Shown in pieces: positions 3,250-31,764 of a DNA stretch of 64,000 nucleotides. The stretch is taken from contig NZ_LWHJ01000031.1 of the NCBI RefSeq assembly GCF_001652725.1, positions 186,001 to 250,000 of the forward strand, given 5' to 3'. The position numbers and the translations under genes were made by a program. This DNA comes from Pedobacter psychrophilus (GTDB lineage: Bacteria; Bacteroidota; Bacteroidia; Sphingobacteriales; Sphingobacteriaceae). A model generated the notes under the pieces. It had not been told where the DNA came from and ran no database searches. It was given only the letters and a program-made list of their open reading frames with translations. The stretch's first letter is position 1; each line of letters starts with the position of its first letter.

Positions 3250-3762
3250 ATGAAAAAATCAATCTTTTTTATCATTGCCGTTTTATTTATATCGGCTTGT
3301 ACCCCAATTGGTTCTAACACTCCCGTCTCTTACACAGATTATGTCCCAGTATTACTTTCAAGAAGTAGCCTTTCAACATCCGTAAGGTTAAAGCCAACAA
3401 CAAATATCGGTGATGCAGCCAAAATCTATTATAAAGATAATTTTATTTTTATTAGTGAGCGTTTTAAAGGCGTACATATCATTGATAATAGTAATCCAAA
3501 ATTACCTGTTAACAAAGGTTATATTGCTGTACCTGGTTGTGTGGATATGGCCATTAAAGAGAATATTTTATATGTTGATAATGCAATAGATTTAATAGCT
3601 ATTAATTTATTGGAAGATGAAAAAGGAAATTTAGCAATAGTAAAGAGGATTGAAAATGTATTTCCTGAAGTTGCACCGCCTGATGGTGGCGTGATTCCAT
3701 CTAAATTTAATTTAACAAACAGGCCACCAAATACTATTATCGTAAGCTGGACAAAAAAATAA
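3250..3762 (+). CDS. LVIVD-repeat-like lipoprotein
   Basis: The start is placed at the ATG at 3250, which opens a clean lipoprotein signal (MKKSIFFIIAVLFISAC). An in-frame start 27 bases earlier would bury the signal. The mature part of about 150 aa has beta-propeller-like units such as GVHIIDNSNPKLP followed by GYIAVPGCVDMAIKENILYVD, as in LVIVD-repeat surface proteins. It is followed after two bases by a second lipoprotein of the same style and then an outer-membrane protein, so the three probably form one transcript. At 170 aa it is short for a propeller and may pair with its neighbour. Function unknown. Confidence 0.7.
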   Translation: MKKSIFFIIAVLFISACTPIGSNTPVSYTDYVPVLLSRSSLSTSVRLKPTTNIGDAAKIYYKDNFIFISERFKGVHIIDNSNPKLPVNKGYIAVPGCVDMAIKENILYVDNAIDLIAINLLEDEKGNLAIVKRIENVFPEVAPPDGGVIPSKFNLTNRPPNTIIVSWTKK

Positions 3763-4519: not shown

Positions 4520-5206
4520 ATGAAAAAAATCATACTGCTAATTTTTTGCTTTCTAATCATTCAAGTTAAATTGTTTGCCCAATTAGGAAAGGTTAGTACA
4601 GATGCTGATGCAAAAAGTAAATTCCCATTAAGTATCAGTTTTCAGCCTATATTTTTGATGAATAACACCGTTAGATTTGATGCAGAGATTCAGCAAAAAG
4701 AAAAATCTTCGGCATTTGTTGTTGGCTTGGAAGTTATAAACGGAAAAACCGACCTTCTTTACAGAAACATAAATGACGATGAAGCCGAAAAAGATTATGT
4801 TTCTGGTGGCGGAATCAACTTGGCTTATAAATTAAAATTAAAGCCGACTGAAAAACTGACCAGCTTTTACTTCTCTCCAGGGATAACTTTAAGAACTTTA
4901 GAGTTTGCCGTAAAAGGCGATGCTTTTTATTCTTATATTGAAGATGGTATTGAGTATATCACTTTTGGAGAATCAGAAACTAAATACCCTATAAATTCGG
5001 GTTTTCTATTTGCTAATTTTGGCTATCATAAAGTATGGAACACCAATATTTTATTAGATACGTATTTTGGTTATGGTTATAAAATGAGTTCACGAAATGA
5101 ATTGTTAGAGAGAAATAGAAATTATGAGCAGCCTATTTATGGCTTTAATTATAATGGTTTTGTTTTACAAGCAGGTATAAGGTTTGGCTTTCAAATAAAA
5201 AATTAA
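4520..5206 (+). CDS. Predicted outer-membrane beta-barrel protein, function unknown
   Basis: This 228-aa protein begins with a signal peptide ending near LFAQ. The mature part is rich in alternating hydrophobic and aromatic strands (LNAYKL- and YFGYGYKM-like) and ends with the aromatic-containing strand VLQAGIRFGFQIKN, as expected of a small outer-membrane barrel. It is the last gene of the lipoprotein-lipoprotein-barrel trio. I do not recognise a specific family. Assignment rests on composition, the signal peptide and context. Confidence 0.6.
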   Translation: MKKIILLIFCFLIIQVKLFAQLGKVSTDADAKSKFPLSISFQPIFLMNNTVRFDAEIQQKEKSSAFVVGLEVINGKTDLLYRNINDDEAEKDYVSGGGINLAYKLKLKPTEKLTSFYFSPGITLRTLEFAVKGDAFYSYIEDGIEYITFGESETKYPINSGFLFANFGYHKVWNTNILLDTYFGYGYKMSSRNELLERNRNYEQPIYGFNYNGFVLQAGIRFGFQIKN

Positions 5207-5303
5207 AAACTAATTAACTAATCCCTAATGAACTAATCACTAAGAACAATTCCCTAACCAACTAACAAACTAAACCTAACCACCTAACAAACTAACAAAC
5301 CAC
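5207..5303. repeat. Degenerate CTAA-rich low-complexity tract
   Basis: The space between two convergent genes is filled with imperfect repetitions of AACTAAC/CCTAAC units. The strand asymmetry is strong, with almost no G on the plus strand. A similar tract occurs at 23.83-23.94 kb. No hairpin with a T tract is obvious. It probably belongs to a class of low-complexity intergenic sequence in this genome. Confidence 0.55.
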
Positions 5304-27723: not shown

Positions 27724-28279
27724 TTTTATTCCTCTCTTTCTGATTTTGGGTTGTGAAAGCCAGAATCAGAAGATAGTATTAAACGAGATAAAAAACAGCA
27801 GTGAAGCTGGTTTCCATAGCGTAAATGGTTTGATGTTTAAAAATAATCAACCTTACACAGGATATATTTTTTCCTTCTATGCTCAAACTAATGATACTCT
27901 AGAAGTTACAGGTTATTATTTAGGCAAAGAACATGGAAACTGGAGAAAATATAGTGTGAATGGAACTAAAACAGAAAGTCGTTTTTTTGTAAACGGATTC
28001 AAAGAAGGTGAACTAAAAGCTTGGTGGCCAGATGGAAGAAAAAAACTGCACTATCATTTCCAAAATAATGAGTATGAAGGGAATTATAAAGAATGGAACT
28101 ACCAGGGTCAGCTTACGTTGAATCTTAATTACCATAAAGGTTATGAAGAAGGTGTTGAACAAATGTTTTATGATGATGGTAAGGTAAGGGCAAATTACAT
28201 CATCAAAAACGGAAGAAGATTTGGTTTATTAGGGACAAAAAATTGCACCAATGTATCGGACAGTATTTTTAAAAATTAG
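27695..28279 (+). CDS. MORN-variant repeat lipoprotein (YwqK-like)
   Basis: The protein begins with a lipoprotein signal (VQFLINFIPLFLILGC) and then has MORN-variant repeats: GYYLGKEHGNWRKYSVNGTK, GFKEGELKAWWPDGRK, EYEGNYKEWNYQG and GYEEGVEQMFYDDGK. Such YwqK-type repeat proteins are often labelled antitoxin-like, but no toxin is present and an envelope role is more likely here. The ATG at 27695 is chosen for the clean signal; an ATG at 27680 is also in frame. Either start overlaps the end of the YHYH gene, and the C terminus overlaps the SCO1 start by 29 bases. Confidence 0.78.
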   Translation: MVRQVQFLINFIPLFLILGCESQNQKIVLNEIKNSSEAGFHSVNGLMFKNNQPYTGYIFSFYAQTNDTLEVTGYYLGKEHGNWRKYSVNGTKTESRFFVNGFKEGELKAWWPDGRKKLHYHFQNNEYEGNYKEWNYQGQLTLNLNYHKGYEEGVEQMFYDDGKVRANYIIKNGRRFGLLGTKNCTNVSDSIFKN

Positions 28280-28904
28280 CTTCATTTGTTTTCTTTTTTC
28301 TTTTTTGGCTTGTGCCGATATTGATAAAACGGAAAAGCTGCCTTACTATAACAAACCTGATTTTACGCCTCTATTTTTAAAAACCACTGAAGAAGTAAAT
28401 CTAAAAGTAACACATCAAATTGCCGATTTTTCTTGTGTTGATCAGTATGGAAAAACCATTACCCAACAAGACATCAATGGAAAAATACATATAGCCAGCT
28501 TCATTTTTACAAGTTGTGGTAGCATTTGCCCAACCATTACTAAAAACATGAAATTACTGCAAAACGAGTTTAAGAATGATCATAATTTAGTGATGTTATC
28601 TTACAGCGTAACACCTTGGATTGATGATGTAGAAAGATTAAAAATTTATGCCCAAGTCAATAAAATTGATGCTCCTAATTGGCATTTACTCACAGGTAAA
28701 AAAGCTGAAATTTATAAATTAGCCCGTCAATCTTATTTTGCAGAAGAAGATTTAGGTTTCACCAAAGACAGTACTCAATTTCTGCATACTGAGCATATTT
28801 TATTGGTTGATAAAAATAAAAGAATTCGAGGTATTTATAACGGAACTTTAGAATTAGAAGCTCAGCAGTTAGTTAAAGACATTAAAGCTTTAGAAAAAGA
28901 ATAA
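28251..28904 (+). CDS. SCO1/SenC family copper chaperone lipoprotein
   Basis: SCO proteins deliver copper to the CuA site of cytochrome c oxidase or act as thiol reductases in the envelope. This 217-aa protein has a lipoprotein signal ending FLAC21, the thioredoxin fold and the copper-binding CxxxC (C89-GSI-C93 in FTSCGSICPTI). The downstream His in FLHTEHILLVD completes the site. It ends the ECF sigma operon and is closed by a hairpin terminator. The last 91 bases are duplicated at 29990-30080 beyond the RAYT element. Confidence 0.93.
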   Translation: MYRTVFLKISFICFLFSFLACADIDKTEKLPYYNKPDFTPLFLKTTEEVNLKVTHQIADFSCVDQYGKTITQQDINGKIHIASFIFTSCGSICPTITKNMKLLQNEFKNDHNLVMLSYSVTPWIDDVERLKIYAQVNKIDAPNWHLLTGKKAEIYKLARQSYFAEEDLGFTKDSTQFLHTEHILLVDKNKRIRGIYNGTLELEAQQLVKDIKALEKE

Positions 28905-28906
28905 TA

Positions 28907-28937
28907 AAAGCTCAGAATTTAAAAAATTCTGAGCTTT
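28907..28937 (+). terminator. Terminator hairpin between SCO1 and the pruA fragment
   Basis: AAAGCTCAGAATTT and AAATTCTGAGCTTT pair perfectly over 14 bp around a three-base loop. The symmetric A and T flanks allow it to work in both directions for the convergent SCO1 and pruA ends. A near-identical copy lies at 30083-30114. Confidence 0.85.
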
Positions 28938-28952
28938 AAATCTTTAATTATA

Positions 28953-29087
28953 TTATTCTTTATCCAAAAATGGATAACGATAATCAATTGGAGGATTAAA
29001 AGTTTCTTTGATTGTATGTGGAGAAACCCAACGTAAAAGATTGATCATTGCTCCAGCTTTATCATTAGTTCCGGAACCTCTAGCGCC
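28953..29087 (-). pseudogene. 3' fragment of pruA (duplicated)
   Basis: On the minus strand this encodes the last ~45 residues of delta-1-pyrroline-5-carboxylate dehydrogenase, starting at GARGSGTNDKAGAMINLL and ending DYRYPFLDKE. It matches the intact gene at 30130-31764 except for one change (His for Arg in SPRTIKET) and several synonymous differences. Upstream it is cut by the RAYT element at GCGCC/TCTAGCT. The open frame that continues into the element is an accident of the junction and not a gene. Confidence 0.92.
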
Positions 29088-29094
29088 TCTAGCT

Positions 29095-29124
29095 GTTCGA
29101 CATGTTCCGCAGGGCATGTCGAAC
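29095..29124 (+). repeat. REP-like palindrome 1
   Basis: Arms GTTCGACATG and CATGTCGAAC flank a 10-base centre TTCCGCAGGG. The loop is GC-rich in contrast to the AT-rich surroundings. It is the exact inverse of copy 3. Confidence 0.9.
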
Positions 29125-29194
29125 TTTAAATAAAAAGGATTTGTAATCCTCAATTCCCACTTGTAATTCAATTTAAAAAAGCCAATATTTATCC

Positions 29195-29332
29195 ATGGCT
29201 TTCGCTTACAGAATATACGACCAGAAAGGAGTTTATTTCATCAACTGTACTGTAAACCAGTGGTTTATGTGTTTACAAGGAAGGATTTATGCTGTTCGAC
29301 ATGTTCCGAAAGGCATGTCGAACTTTAAATAA
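29195..29332 (+). pseudogene. Truncated RAYT 5' end from a tandem duplication
   Basis: From the ATG at 29195 the frame reads MAFAYRIYDQKGVYFINCTV, nearly identical to the start of the intact transposase at 29394. It then shifts frame after NQW through a one-base loss, runs into palindrome 2 and stops at 29332 after 45 residues. No HUH motif or catalytic Tyr is present, so it cannot be an active transposase. It is the product of a ~199-bp tandem duplication of the element's left end. Confidence 0.88.
29294..29323 (+). repeat. REP-like palindrome 2
   Basis: The same arms as palindrome 1 (GTTCGACATG, CATGTCGAAC), with a changed centre TTCCGAAAGG. It marks the start of the second unit of the internal ~199-bp tandem duplication. 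Confidence 0.9.
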
Positions 29333-29393
29333 AAAGGATTTGCAATCCTCAATTCCCATTTGTAATTCAACTTAAAAAAGCCAATATTTATCC

Positions 29394-29924
29394 ATGGCTT
29401 TCGCTTACAGAATATACGACCAGAAAGGAATTTATTTCATCACCTGTACTGTAAACCAGTGGGTTGATGTGTTTACACGAAAAGATTATATAGATATTTT
29501 ATTAGAAAGTTTGATTTACTGCCAAAAACACAAAGGGTTAAAAATATTCTCATGGGTGGTAATGACTAATCATATCCATCTGATCATAGGCACTAATAAA
29601 GATAATCTCAGTGACATCATTAGAGACTTTAAAAAATATACATCTACTAAAATCACTTTAGCCATTACAAATAATCAAAAGGAAAGTAGAAAAAATTGGA
29701 TGCTATGGCTCTTAAAAAAAGAAGATTATATTTTATTTTGGCAAGAAGGATATCATGGAGAAGAAATCACCAGTCTGGATTTTTTCAATACAAAGCAAGA
29801 TTATATTCATCTCAACCCTGTTAGAGCAGGTTTGGTTGAGAAAGAGGAAGAATATTTATATAGTAGTTGTGGTCAGCTATATGGAATAAGAAATAGTATG
29901 CTGGAACTTACCAGTTTTGTTTAG
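29394..29924 (+). CDS. REP-associated tyrosine transposase (Y1 transposase, RAYT)
   Basis: This 176-aa protein is a single-domain Y1 transposase of the IS200/RAYT superfamily, which nicks single-stranded DNA at REP hairpins. The HUH metal motif is VVMTNHIHLII (H60, H62). The catalytic Tyr region is KQDYIHLNPVRAGLV, with Y137 as the likely nucleophile. The N-terminal YRIYDQKGIYFITCTVN strand is typical of the family. It is flanked by inverted REP palindromes and lies in a duplication of the SCO1-pruA junction. Only one intact transposase gene is present, as usual for RAYTs, which are thought to be domesticated or single-copy movers of REPs. Confidence 0.92.
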   Translation: MAFAYRIYDQKGIYFITCTVNQWVDVFTRKDYIDILLESLIYCQKHKGLKIFSWVVMTNHIHLIIGTNKDNLSDIIRDFKKYTSTKITLAITNNQKESRKNWMLWLLKKEDYILFWQEGYHGEEITSLDFFNTKQDYIHLNPVRAGLVEKEEEYLYSSCGQLYGIRNSMLELTSFV

Positions 29925-29950
29925 CGGATTGCAAATCCACATTATTCAAA

Positions 29951-29980
29951 GTTCGACATGCCCTGCGGAACATGTCGAAC
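29951..29980 (-). repeat. REP-like palindrome 3, inverted relative to copies 1 and 2
   Basis: Arms GTTCGACATG and CATGTCGAAC flank the centre CCCTGCGGAA, the reverse complement of copy 1. It lies about 26 bases after the transposase stop, next to the second inner hairpin GGATTGCAAATCC. Confidence 0.9.
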
Positions 29981-29986
29981 AGCTTT

Positions 29987-30080
29987 TGGAAATAAAAGGA
30001 TTCGAGGTATATACAACGGAACTTTAGAATTAGAAGCTCAGCAATTAGTTAAAGACATTAAAACTTTAGAAAAAGAATAA
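29987..30080 (+). pseudogene. SCO1 3' fragment (duplicated)
   Basis: The frame encodes NKRIRGIYNGTLELEAQQLV and then KDIKTLEKE before a stop, matching the last residues of the intact SCO1 gene ending at 28904. There is one amino-acid change (Thr for Ala) and four synonymous differences. It has no start or signal of its own and is joined directly to the right end of the RAYT element. Confidence 0.9.
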
Positions 30081-30264
30081 TAAAAGCTCAGAATTTTAAA
30101 AAATTCTGAGCTTTAAATCTTTAATTATATTACTCTTTATCCAAAAATGGATAACGATAATCAATCGGAGGATTAAAAGTTTCTTTGATTGTACGTGGAG
30201 AAACCCAACGTAAAAGATTGATCATTGCTCCTGCTTTATCATTAGTTCCAGAACCTCTAGCGCC
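29990..30264. repeat. Right copy of the ~275-bp direct repeat flanking the RAYT element
   Basis: This copy has the SCO1 3' fragment, the terminator and the intact pruA 3' end. It is offset by 1176 bases from the left copy, and by 1177 after a one-base insertion in the terminator loop. The spacer between the two genes has no substitutions. Confidence 0.93.
30083..30114 (-). terminator. Terminator hairpin downstream of pruA
   Basis: AAAGCTCAGAATTT pairs with AAATTCTGAGCTTT around a four-base loop. This is the copy used by the intact pruA gene. It differs from the left copy by one extra T in the loop region. Confidence 0.85.
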
Positions 30265-31764
30265 ACCAAATGGTTGCTGACCAACAACTGCTCCTGTACA
30301 TTTATCGTTGATATAAAAATTACCCGCACAGTTTTTTAGTTTATCTGAAGCTAATTCTATCGCATAGCGATCCTGAGAAAAAATTGCTCCAGTTAAAGCA
30401 TAAGGCGAAGTTTCGTCAATCAGTGTTAAAGTTTTCTCAAAATCTTTATCCTCATAAACATAAATGGTTAAAACTGGTCCAAATAATTCTTCGCACATGG
30501 TGGTATATTTTGGATCATTGGCTACAATAATGGTTGGCTCTATAAAATAACCTACCGATTTATCATAATTACCACCGCAAATGATTTCTACATTTTTATC
30601 AGCTTTAGCTTGATCAATATATTTAGCTAGTTTATCAAATGATTTCTCATCGATAACGGCATTGATAAAATTCCCAAAATCTTCAGTTGGTCCCATTTTA
30701 AAAGAAGCAATATCTTTCAACATCATTTCTTTCATTTGTGGCCAAAGAGATTTAGCAATGTAGCTACGAGATGCAGCAGAGCATTTTTGTCCTTGATATT
30801 CAAAAGCACCTCTCACAATTCCGGTTGATGCGGCTTTCCAATCTGCAGATGGATGAACAAGGATAAAATCTTTACCACCAGTTTCACCAACTATTCTTGG
30901 GTAGCTTTTATATTTATGGATGTTGGTTCCAATTGTTTTCCAAATGTGCTGAAAAACAGCTGTAGAACCCGTAAAATGTATTCCCGCAAAATCAGGATGG
31001 TTAAAAATAACTTCCCCAACTTCTGGCCCATCGGCATAAATCAAGTTGATAACGCCATCAGGAACACCAGCTTCCTTAAAAATTTTCATGATTACATTAG
31101 CAGCATAAACTTGCGTATCGGCGGGTTTCCAAACCACCACATTGCCCATTAAGGCACAAGAAGCAGGTAAATTTCCAGCTATAGCTGTGAAATTAAAAGG
31201 AGTTAAAGCAAATATAAATCCTTCTAAAGGGCGTTGTTCTAATCTATTCCAAACTCCGCTTGGTGAAACTGGCGGTTGTTGCGCATAAATATCTGCTAAA
31301 TAGCTCACGTTAAACCGCAAGAAATCTATAAACTCGCAAGCTGCATCAATCTCTGCTTGAAAAGCATTTTTTGACTGACCTAACATGGTTGCTGCATTTA
31401 ATTCGTACCTATATTTTGTGGCAACTAAATCCGCAGCTTTTAAAAATATGGCTGCTCTGTGCTCCCATCCCAAATTTTCCCAATTTGCTTTTGCCGCTAA
31501 AGCAGCATCAATAGCTTGTTTAACATGACTTTTATCACCATAATTAAAACATCCTAAAACATGTTTATGATCATGTGGAGGACGCAATGCGACTTTATTT
31601 TTTGTAGTAATTTCCTCACTACCAATATACATTGGGATATCAATCTCTTTATTTCTTGCTTCCACTAAAGCGTCTTTTAATAAAGCTCTTTCTTTGGTAT
31701 TAGGGGCATAACTATAAATTGGTTCGTTGGTTGGTGTTGGAACCTTAAAAAATCCTTTAAGCAT
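30130..31764 (-). CDS. pruA: L-glutamate gamma-semialdehyde (delta-1-pyrroline-5-carboxylate) dehydrogenase
   Basis: PruA oxidises glutamate semialdehyde to glutamate with NAD in proline catabolism. The 544-aa protein has the family start KVPTPTNEPIYSYAPNTKE, the cofactor loop FTGSTAVFQHIW, the catalytic-region Glu in VGETGGKDF and the active Cys in YQGQKCSAASRSYI. The C terminus is GARGSGTNDKAGAMINLL through DKE. It corresponds to the stand-alone dehydrogenase of eukaryote/Bacteroidota type, not the bifunctional PutA. A proline dehydrogenase gene is not seen in the window. The 3' end is the intact member of the duplicated junction. Confidence 0.97.
   Translation of the reverse strand: MLKGFFKVPTPTNEPIYSYAPNTKERALLKDALVEARNKEIDIPMYIGSEEITTKNKVALRPPHDHKHVLGCFNYGDKSHVKQAIDAALAAKANWENLGWEHRAAIFLKAADLVATKYRYELNAATMLGQSKNAFQAEIDAACEFIDFLRFNVSYLADIYAQQPPVSPSGVWNRLEQRPLEGFIFALTPFNFTAIAGNLPASCALMGNVVVWKPADTQVYAANVIMKIFKEAGVPDGVINLIYADGPEVGEVIFNHPDFAGIHFTGSTAVFQHIWKTIGTNIHKYKSYPRIVGETGGKDFILVHPSADWKAASTGIVRGAFEYQGQKCSAASRSYIAKSLWPQMKEMMLKDIASFKMGPTEDFGNFINAVIDEKSFDKLAKYIDQAKADKNVEIICGGNYDKSVGYFIEPTIIVANDPKYTTMCEELFGPVLTIYVYEDKDFEKTLTLIDETSPYALTGAIFSQDRYAIELASDKLKNCAGNFYINDKCTGAVVGQQPFGGARGSGTNDKAGAMINLLRWVSPRTIKETFNPPIDYRYPFLDKE

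Follow-up and report, generated by a model that had tools for sequence, protein, structure and literature searches.

RAYT genes encode Y1/HUH proteins and lie in units, described as tnpA-REP units or REPtrons (PMC8266576, PMC6006769), that are bounded by inverted REP hairpins. In vitro, an E. coli relative of these proteins can cut REPs in single-stranded form and recombine them (PMC8266576); neither paper reports evidence that tnpA-REP units are mobile or that REPtrons transpose as units. Here we analysed a stretch of 64,000 nucleotides of Pedobacter psychrophilus DNA (contig NZ_LWHJ01000031.1, positions 186,001 to 250,000; hereafter the window), in which a RAYT unit of the same build lies between the genes SCO1 and pruA. 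In contrast to the published units, this one occupies a site that is empty in relatives and stands between two copies of its flank. Insertion of IS200/IS605 elements gives no larger target duplication (PMC2817692), whereas the window has a flank duplication of 275 bp, the origin of which need not be transposition.

RAYTs, REPs, homology-facilitated illegitimate recombination (HFIR) and insertion-duplication are all already known. When linear DNA enters E. coli, it can be trimmed and circularised by ligation, after which one crossover integrates the circle and leaves the insert between two copies of the homologous segment; such circularised integration was ten times commoner than HFIR, the products of which generally carry a deletion (PMC3240628). 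The window resembles the single-crossover product, since direct repeats of one gene segment flank the insert and no resident DNA was lost by comparison with a collinear related genome (G009). However, the insert was there a laboratory plasmid fragment after conjugation, whereas here the event would be natural, circularisation would have to be supposed, and REP ends stand at the junctions. HFIR has been proposed for displaced ends of type VI secretion system effectors and of Rhs (PMC5361080), and its scheme would match the one supposed here, with one homologous anchor, one non-homologous joint, which often has 3-10 bp of microhomology, and displaced resident sequence behind the insert. It differs from the window in that its products usually have a deletion of about the size of the insert (PMC3240628) rather than a duplication, and in that the insert was an effector-immunity pair rather than a RAYT. 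Finally, in the tandem duplications made by transformation in S. pneumoniae (PMC3784515), incoming DNA links two copies of a region that come to stand on either side of a repeat, as would be the case here, but these duplications span ~100-900 kb and need repeats in both donor and host, compared with 275 bp in the window.

Among the titles and opening lines of abstracts listed on RAYTs and target site duplication, and on RAYTs and horizontal transfer or homologous recombination, none reports diverged flanking alleles at RAYTs. The sequence comparisons described below lead us to regard as reasonably probable that the two flank copies are diverged alleles of the SCO1-pruA end region, which would have been joined when a chromosome without the RAYT took up, by recombination, DNA of a close relative that carried a REP-to-REP RAYT unit. 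What we describe may be a known type of recombination product that recurs at RAYT borders and explains the entry of RAYT genes into genomes.

Two copies of the SCO1-pruA end region

SCO1 (28251-28904, forward strand; an open reading frame (ORF) of 217 aa with a Pfam SCO1-SenC match at E 1.9e-24) and pruA (30130-31764, reverse strand; an ORF of 544 aa that scores 806.8 bits with TIGR01236, cut-off 613.6) are convergent and both complete, with the RAYT in between. The initial annotation had described direct copies of ~275 bp around the RAYT, with an intact SCO1 and a pruA fragment on the left and the reverse on the right, and we could confirm this layout. The left copy (28814-29087, 274 bp) comprises the live 3' end of SCO1, the terminator and a dead fragment of the pruA 3' end; the right copy (29990-30264, 275 bp) comprises a dead fragment of the SCO1 3' end, the terminator and the live 3' end of pruA. 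These direct repeats, spaced by 1176-1177 bp, are 96% identical, which for a repeat of 275 bp is far beyond chance (E 4e-127). No third copy of the region, sought as a paralogous source, was found elsewhere in the same genome (G000). At the junctions, the bases TCT (29088-29090) separate the pruA fragment from the RAYT unit and the bases TTTGG (29985-29989) separate the unit from the SCO1 fragment.

The RAYT unit itself (29091-29984, forward strand) has outer inverted repeats of 59 nt (29091-29149 and 29926-29984) that are 92% complementary. Since homology to six RAYT loci of other genomes (L198, L199, L200, L218, L220 and L221) ends at 29088-29092 and at 29983-29985, the shared unit runs from REP to REP. 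Its RAYT gene (29394-29924, forward strand) is open and encodes 176 aa with 121.1 bits for NF047646 (cut-off 80) and a Pfam Y1_Tnp match; with the IS200 transposase model NF033573, the protein scored only 26.7 bits, under the cut-off of 55.

In agreement with the allele model of the initial annotation, which predicted one junction in RAYT-free strains, SCO1 and pruA meet only once, with no RAYT at that place, in two related species (G009 and G015). G009 (82-84% identity) is collinear with the window on both sides, with ~100 bp more between SCO1 and pruA. G015 (88% identity) is equally distant from both copies (234 and 232 identities out of 274); at the species level, the nearest relative of each copy is the other copy (96%). 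Neither of the two junctions between insert and flank has homology to the empty site; by eye, a short match may be present at 29990-30002.

The two copies differ by 10 substitutions and one indel of a single base. As the initial annotation had counted, eight of the ten coding differences are synonymous and two change an amino acid, with four synonymous and one nonsynonymous difference in the SCO1 part (Ala/Thr) and the same numbers in the pruA part (His/Arg). Codon position 3 holds 8 of the 10, so that third positions are changed at 8/74 vs 2/196 for the remainder of the repeat. If the dead parts had decayed, 3.8-4.6 synonymous differences out of ten would be expected, with substitutions treated as independent and values assumed for kappa (2-8) and omega (0.05-0.1), and the probability of at least eight is 0.008-0.033; the likelihood ratio of two constrained copies over decay is 7-41. 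We then polarised the changes with G015 and G009 as outgroups. The dead SCO1 copy took four changes, all at third positions, and the functional SCO1 a single nonsynonymous one, while the dead pruA took two (one of them nonsynonymous) and the functional pruA one, placed through G015 only; two differences could not be placed. Five of the six polarised changes in dead copies are therefore synonymous (P 0.008-0.013). These differences, modest alone and not conclusive, suggest diverged functional alleles rather than decay.

Displaced gene ends at other RAYT loci

We surveyed 248 RAYT loci, that is 80 from named contigs, the window and seven others in its own genome, and 160 regions of related genomes. 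At most 236 of these loci are distinct, given seven repeats by sequence and five pairs of the same DNA (L057/L199, L093/L201, L062/L219, L052/L218 and L059/L377), and the regions surveyed reach only 3-4 kb from the RAYT. By scanning at the protein level for host genes next to the RAYT of which a truncated end lies displaced, we found six clean ends besides the window (L252, L263, L270, L348, L351 and L395), clean meaning at least 40 aa at 75% identity, not in an array and not RAYT. Other matches, e.g. at L071, L106, L118, L123 and L201, were left uncounted as shorter, weaker or array-like, the last class being a judgement call. All six clean ends lie less than 600 bp from the RAYT, a range that makes up 17% of the scanned flank (P 2.5e-5). 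This value excludes L106 (array-like, 935 bp away) and L201 (30 aa, 628 bp away); including L106 gives 6/7 (P 1.5e-4) and including both gives 6/8 (P 5e-4). No displaced gene end was found in 18 random regions of 20 kb, a zero that alone proves no enrichment because only ~1.4 would be expected at the rate of the RAYT loci. A search of viral contigs with one pattern gave no match.

As a control for decay, truncated RAYT copies beside intact RAYTs, which are presumably dead, were scored in the same way as the gene ends. With 17 of the 24 rows (five whole or nearly whole copies and two mirror rows were dropped), they gave 29 synonymous and 32 nonsynonymous differences (48% synonymous), which indicates that the scoring method can recognise decay. 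In contrast, the seven scored gene-end loci gave 93 synonymous and 15 nonsynonymous differences (86%; Fisher 2e-7), or 85 and 13 without the window. Keeping all 24 control rows (101/62) still separates them from the gene ends (Fisher 1.6e-5). Thus, to judge from their codons, the displaced gene ends taken together have changed mainly in the manner of working genes.

At L270, an OmpA-like ORF of 633 aa (below the model cut-off) has its final 167 bp repeated just after the right REP of the RAYT. The two copies enclose a 204-aa ORF without Pfam match in addition to the RAYT, differ by 21 synonymous and 2 nonsynonymous changes (P vs decay ~1e-6) and are joined, by eye, a few bases beyond a REP-like hairpin. 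The displaced end at L395 comes from a sensor histidine kinase-like ORF and shows 22 synonymous and 1 nonsynonymous changes (P 3e-8). For L270 and L395, whose nearest relatives reach just 71% and 79% identity, respectively, tree building was not taken further. A search for a paralogue as the source found only the two copies in genome G242. L351 has a RAYT-only insert between convergent genes, flanked by 352-bp copies (98.9% identical) that cover a terminator together with the 3' end of a phosphoribosylformylglycinamidine synthase gene; with a single synonymous difference, it is uninformative between the models. At L252, ~40 codons from the beginning of a small ORF are repeated beyond the RAYT and followed by a piece resembling a RAYT start (by eye), and this locus was left unscored for synonymous and nonsynonymous changes. 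L263 has zero differences in 17 codons. In three loci the insert, located beside the RAYT, is something else: a DUF4160/DUF2442 pair at L348, a 218-aa ORF at L263 and a ~264-aa ORF at L395, both ORFs without Pfam match. The truncated end there adjoins this other cargo and not a REP.

The gene at L348 is prfC (NF001964, 745 bits, cut-off 473), and a displaced prfC 3' end was found in three sister species, G019 (L348), G043 (L479) and G059 (L478). The displaced ends of G043 and G059 are each nearest to the functional gene of the same species (88% and 96%, respectively), and in G019 displaced end and functional gene are 84.5% identical, as far apart as species. Although the prfC tree has low node support (58 and 61) and, of its four outgroup sequences, L451 and L454 aligned badly, the simplest reading of these sequences is that the displaced ends arose in separate events. 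The synonymous and nonsynonymous differences are 19/2 in G019 (P 1e-6), 13/3 in G043 (P 6e-4) and 9/5 in G059 (P 0.053), the trimmed 19/2 being the value used in the total and the whole of L348 giving 22/6. Behind prfC, the sister species carry different cassettes, always accompanied by a displaced 3' end of prfC, and the DUF4160/DUF2442-like pair is present there in G019 and, by eye, in G043.

Possible origins of the flank copies

If a gene-end copy diverged under selection, it must meanwhile have belonged to a working gene in another lineage, and recombination with incoming DNA is the simplest event to account for this. Seen directly are the structure of the locus, the single RAYT-free junction in G009 and G015, the excess of synonymous changes, the recurrence of this excess at other RAYT loci and the REP ends by both junctions. 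In such a recombination, the REP-to-REP RAYT unit would enter a RAYT-free recipient chromosome on DNA of a close relative, and this DNA would be joined on one side by homology in the SCO1 and pruA ends, and on the other side non-homologously at a REP end. The resident gene end would be displaced beside the incoming one and both SCO1 and pruA would stay intact. Two routes seem likely, either a single crossover with a trimmed and circularised incoming fragment, or HFIR. As for the donor, which copy came in and how the non-homologous joint was made, we rely on inference.

If this is true, displaced and synonymously diverged gene ends by RAYTs would be the scar of entry via recombination with close-relative DNA, in which some joints fall at REP ends. 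Should one copy indeed come from a close relative, the locus would show one way by which seemingly immobile RAYT genes spread. Displaced gene ends would moreover provide a countable signature, open to direct bench tests, and would mark the borders of RAYTs and REPs as sites at which small cassettes of genes are added behind conserved genes in Sphingobacteriaceae-like Bacteroidota.

Several observations weigh against this origin. First, the AGA/AGG difference at 29999 is only 10 bp from the right junction, on its inner side, and the sequence AAATAAAAGGATT at the right joint resembles, by eye, the RAYT leader AAATAAAAAGGATT near 29132; this difference may therefore be an effect of the joint instead of an allelic one. 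Second, the proposal of the initial annotation that the copies diverged while functional and were joined afterwards stands only in part: the synonymous excess fits decay poorly and is stronger at other RAYT loci, but the window alone (8/2) does not differ significantly from the truncated RAYT copies (29/32, p = 0.087). Third, no conspecific strain was present among the 18 genomes of the genus that were searched, and neither allele was seen on its own. Fourth, the prfC end of G059 is only borderline against decay (P 0.053), and L351, with its 98.9% identity, is equally consistent with a recent duplication. Finally, both RAYT ends lie within 5 bp of the REP limits, which is more precise than the end of a random fragment.

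This precision of the window RAYT, together with the joint of L270 after a REP-like hairpin, leaves room for REP cutting by the RAYT, and by analogy catalysis by the RAYT in the joining is possible.

The main rival to recombination with incoming DNA assumes that RAYT insertion made a long direct target duplication in one step, and that later homologous exchange with conspecific DNA swapped one copy for a diverged functional allele. Exchange into a 275-bp repeat would yield a synonymous excess as well, both junctions lie close to the REP limits, and L351 has the same RAYT-only geometry with nearly identical copies. However, two events are required, and by our own count a clean host-gene duplication straddles the RAYT at only 3 of the 247 other loci (L252, L270 and L351); none is found among the direct repeats listed for L198-L200, the closest RAYT relatives. 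Furthermore, the copies of L270 enclose the 204-aa ORF too, and the insert in L348, L263 and L395 is not a RAYT. We thus consider this explanation unlikely, if the best placed of the rivals. In view of the same counts and of informative copies that are mostly synonymous, a long target duplication as the normal product of RAYTs, considered after L351, was set aside as unlikely.

It is also conceivable, though unlikely, that RAYT/REP units have their own way of spreading, guided by homology. On incoming single-stranded DNA, the HUH enzyme would cut at a REP and join the end thus made to the strand displaced from the homologous gene of the resident. The RAYT would then enter beside a gene end, with or without cargo genes, and leave the end of the resident allele as a scar.

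According to a simpler alternative, RAYT insertion duplicated a target of ~275 bp and the dead parts then decayed neutrally. This needs a single event followed by ordinary decay, and a truncated RAYT copy inside the element has diverged similarly (~5%), with 3 synonymous and 3 nonsynonymous changes. We nevertheless hold it to be improbable, given the low probability of the synonymous count in the window, the concentration of its changes at third positions and the strong rejection of decay at L270, L395 and the prfC ends of G019 and G043. Lastly, an assembly artefact or a mixture of strains is very improbable: although the assembly is a draft of 33 contigs, the region lies within a contig of 309 kb of a genome that is 99.9% complete and 0.1% contaminated, mixing two RAYT-free strains cannot yield RAYT junctions, and the same architecture occurs in other assemblies.

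REP copies and repeats around RAYT genes

Three REP hairpins of the window unit were found by pattern match, and all fold as single-stranded DNA: the left outer one (29095-29124, forward strand; z -5.4), an inner one with one mismatch (29294-29323, forward strand; z -4.9) and the inverted right outer one (29951-29980, reverse strand; z -3.5). Inside the element, the left REP and RAYT 5' end are duplicated in tandem, a feature absent from the initial annotation. The truncated copy (29092-29290, forward strand), with ~94 nt of coding sequence and a frameshift, is ~95% identical to 29291-29487, and is the internal copy mentioned above whose divergence is similar to that of the flank copies. Elsewhere in the genome, the strict pattern found REPs at one further place and a DNA search gave a few more weak matches. 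In L199 (a Pedobacter arcticus contig), at least five REP copies lie by its RAYT, near 4661-5278, and match the window REP at 90-92%, compared with few in the genome of the window.

Direct repeats of at least 50 bp across the RAYT were present at 39 of 80 family loci; most of them look like tandem REP arrays or RAYT fragments rather than host genes, and they lend no support to the finding. Truncated copies of a REP with one end of the RAYT gene, in tandem or nearby, were seen at many loci, such as 29092-29290 of the window, L129, L133 and L134 in the same genome, and L203, L216, L107, L109 and others. RAYTs of Cyclobacteriaceae and relatives (L056, L064, L073, L075, L079, L081 and L087) lie inside tandem repeat arrays that extend on both sides. 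At L219/L062, a single locus on a named contig of Pedobacter cryotolerans, the upstream region and the RAYT 5' end form a tandem duplication of 253 bp that is 99.6% identical, and at L201 a sequence of 104-134 bp occurs upstream of the RAYT in three nearly identical copies (604-737, 3483-3616 and 3618-3721).

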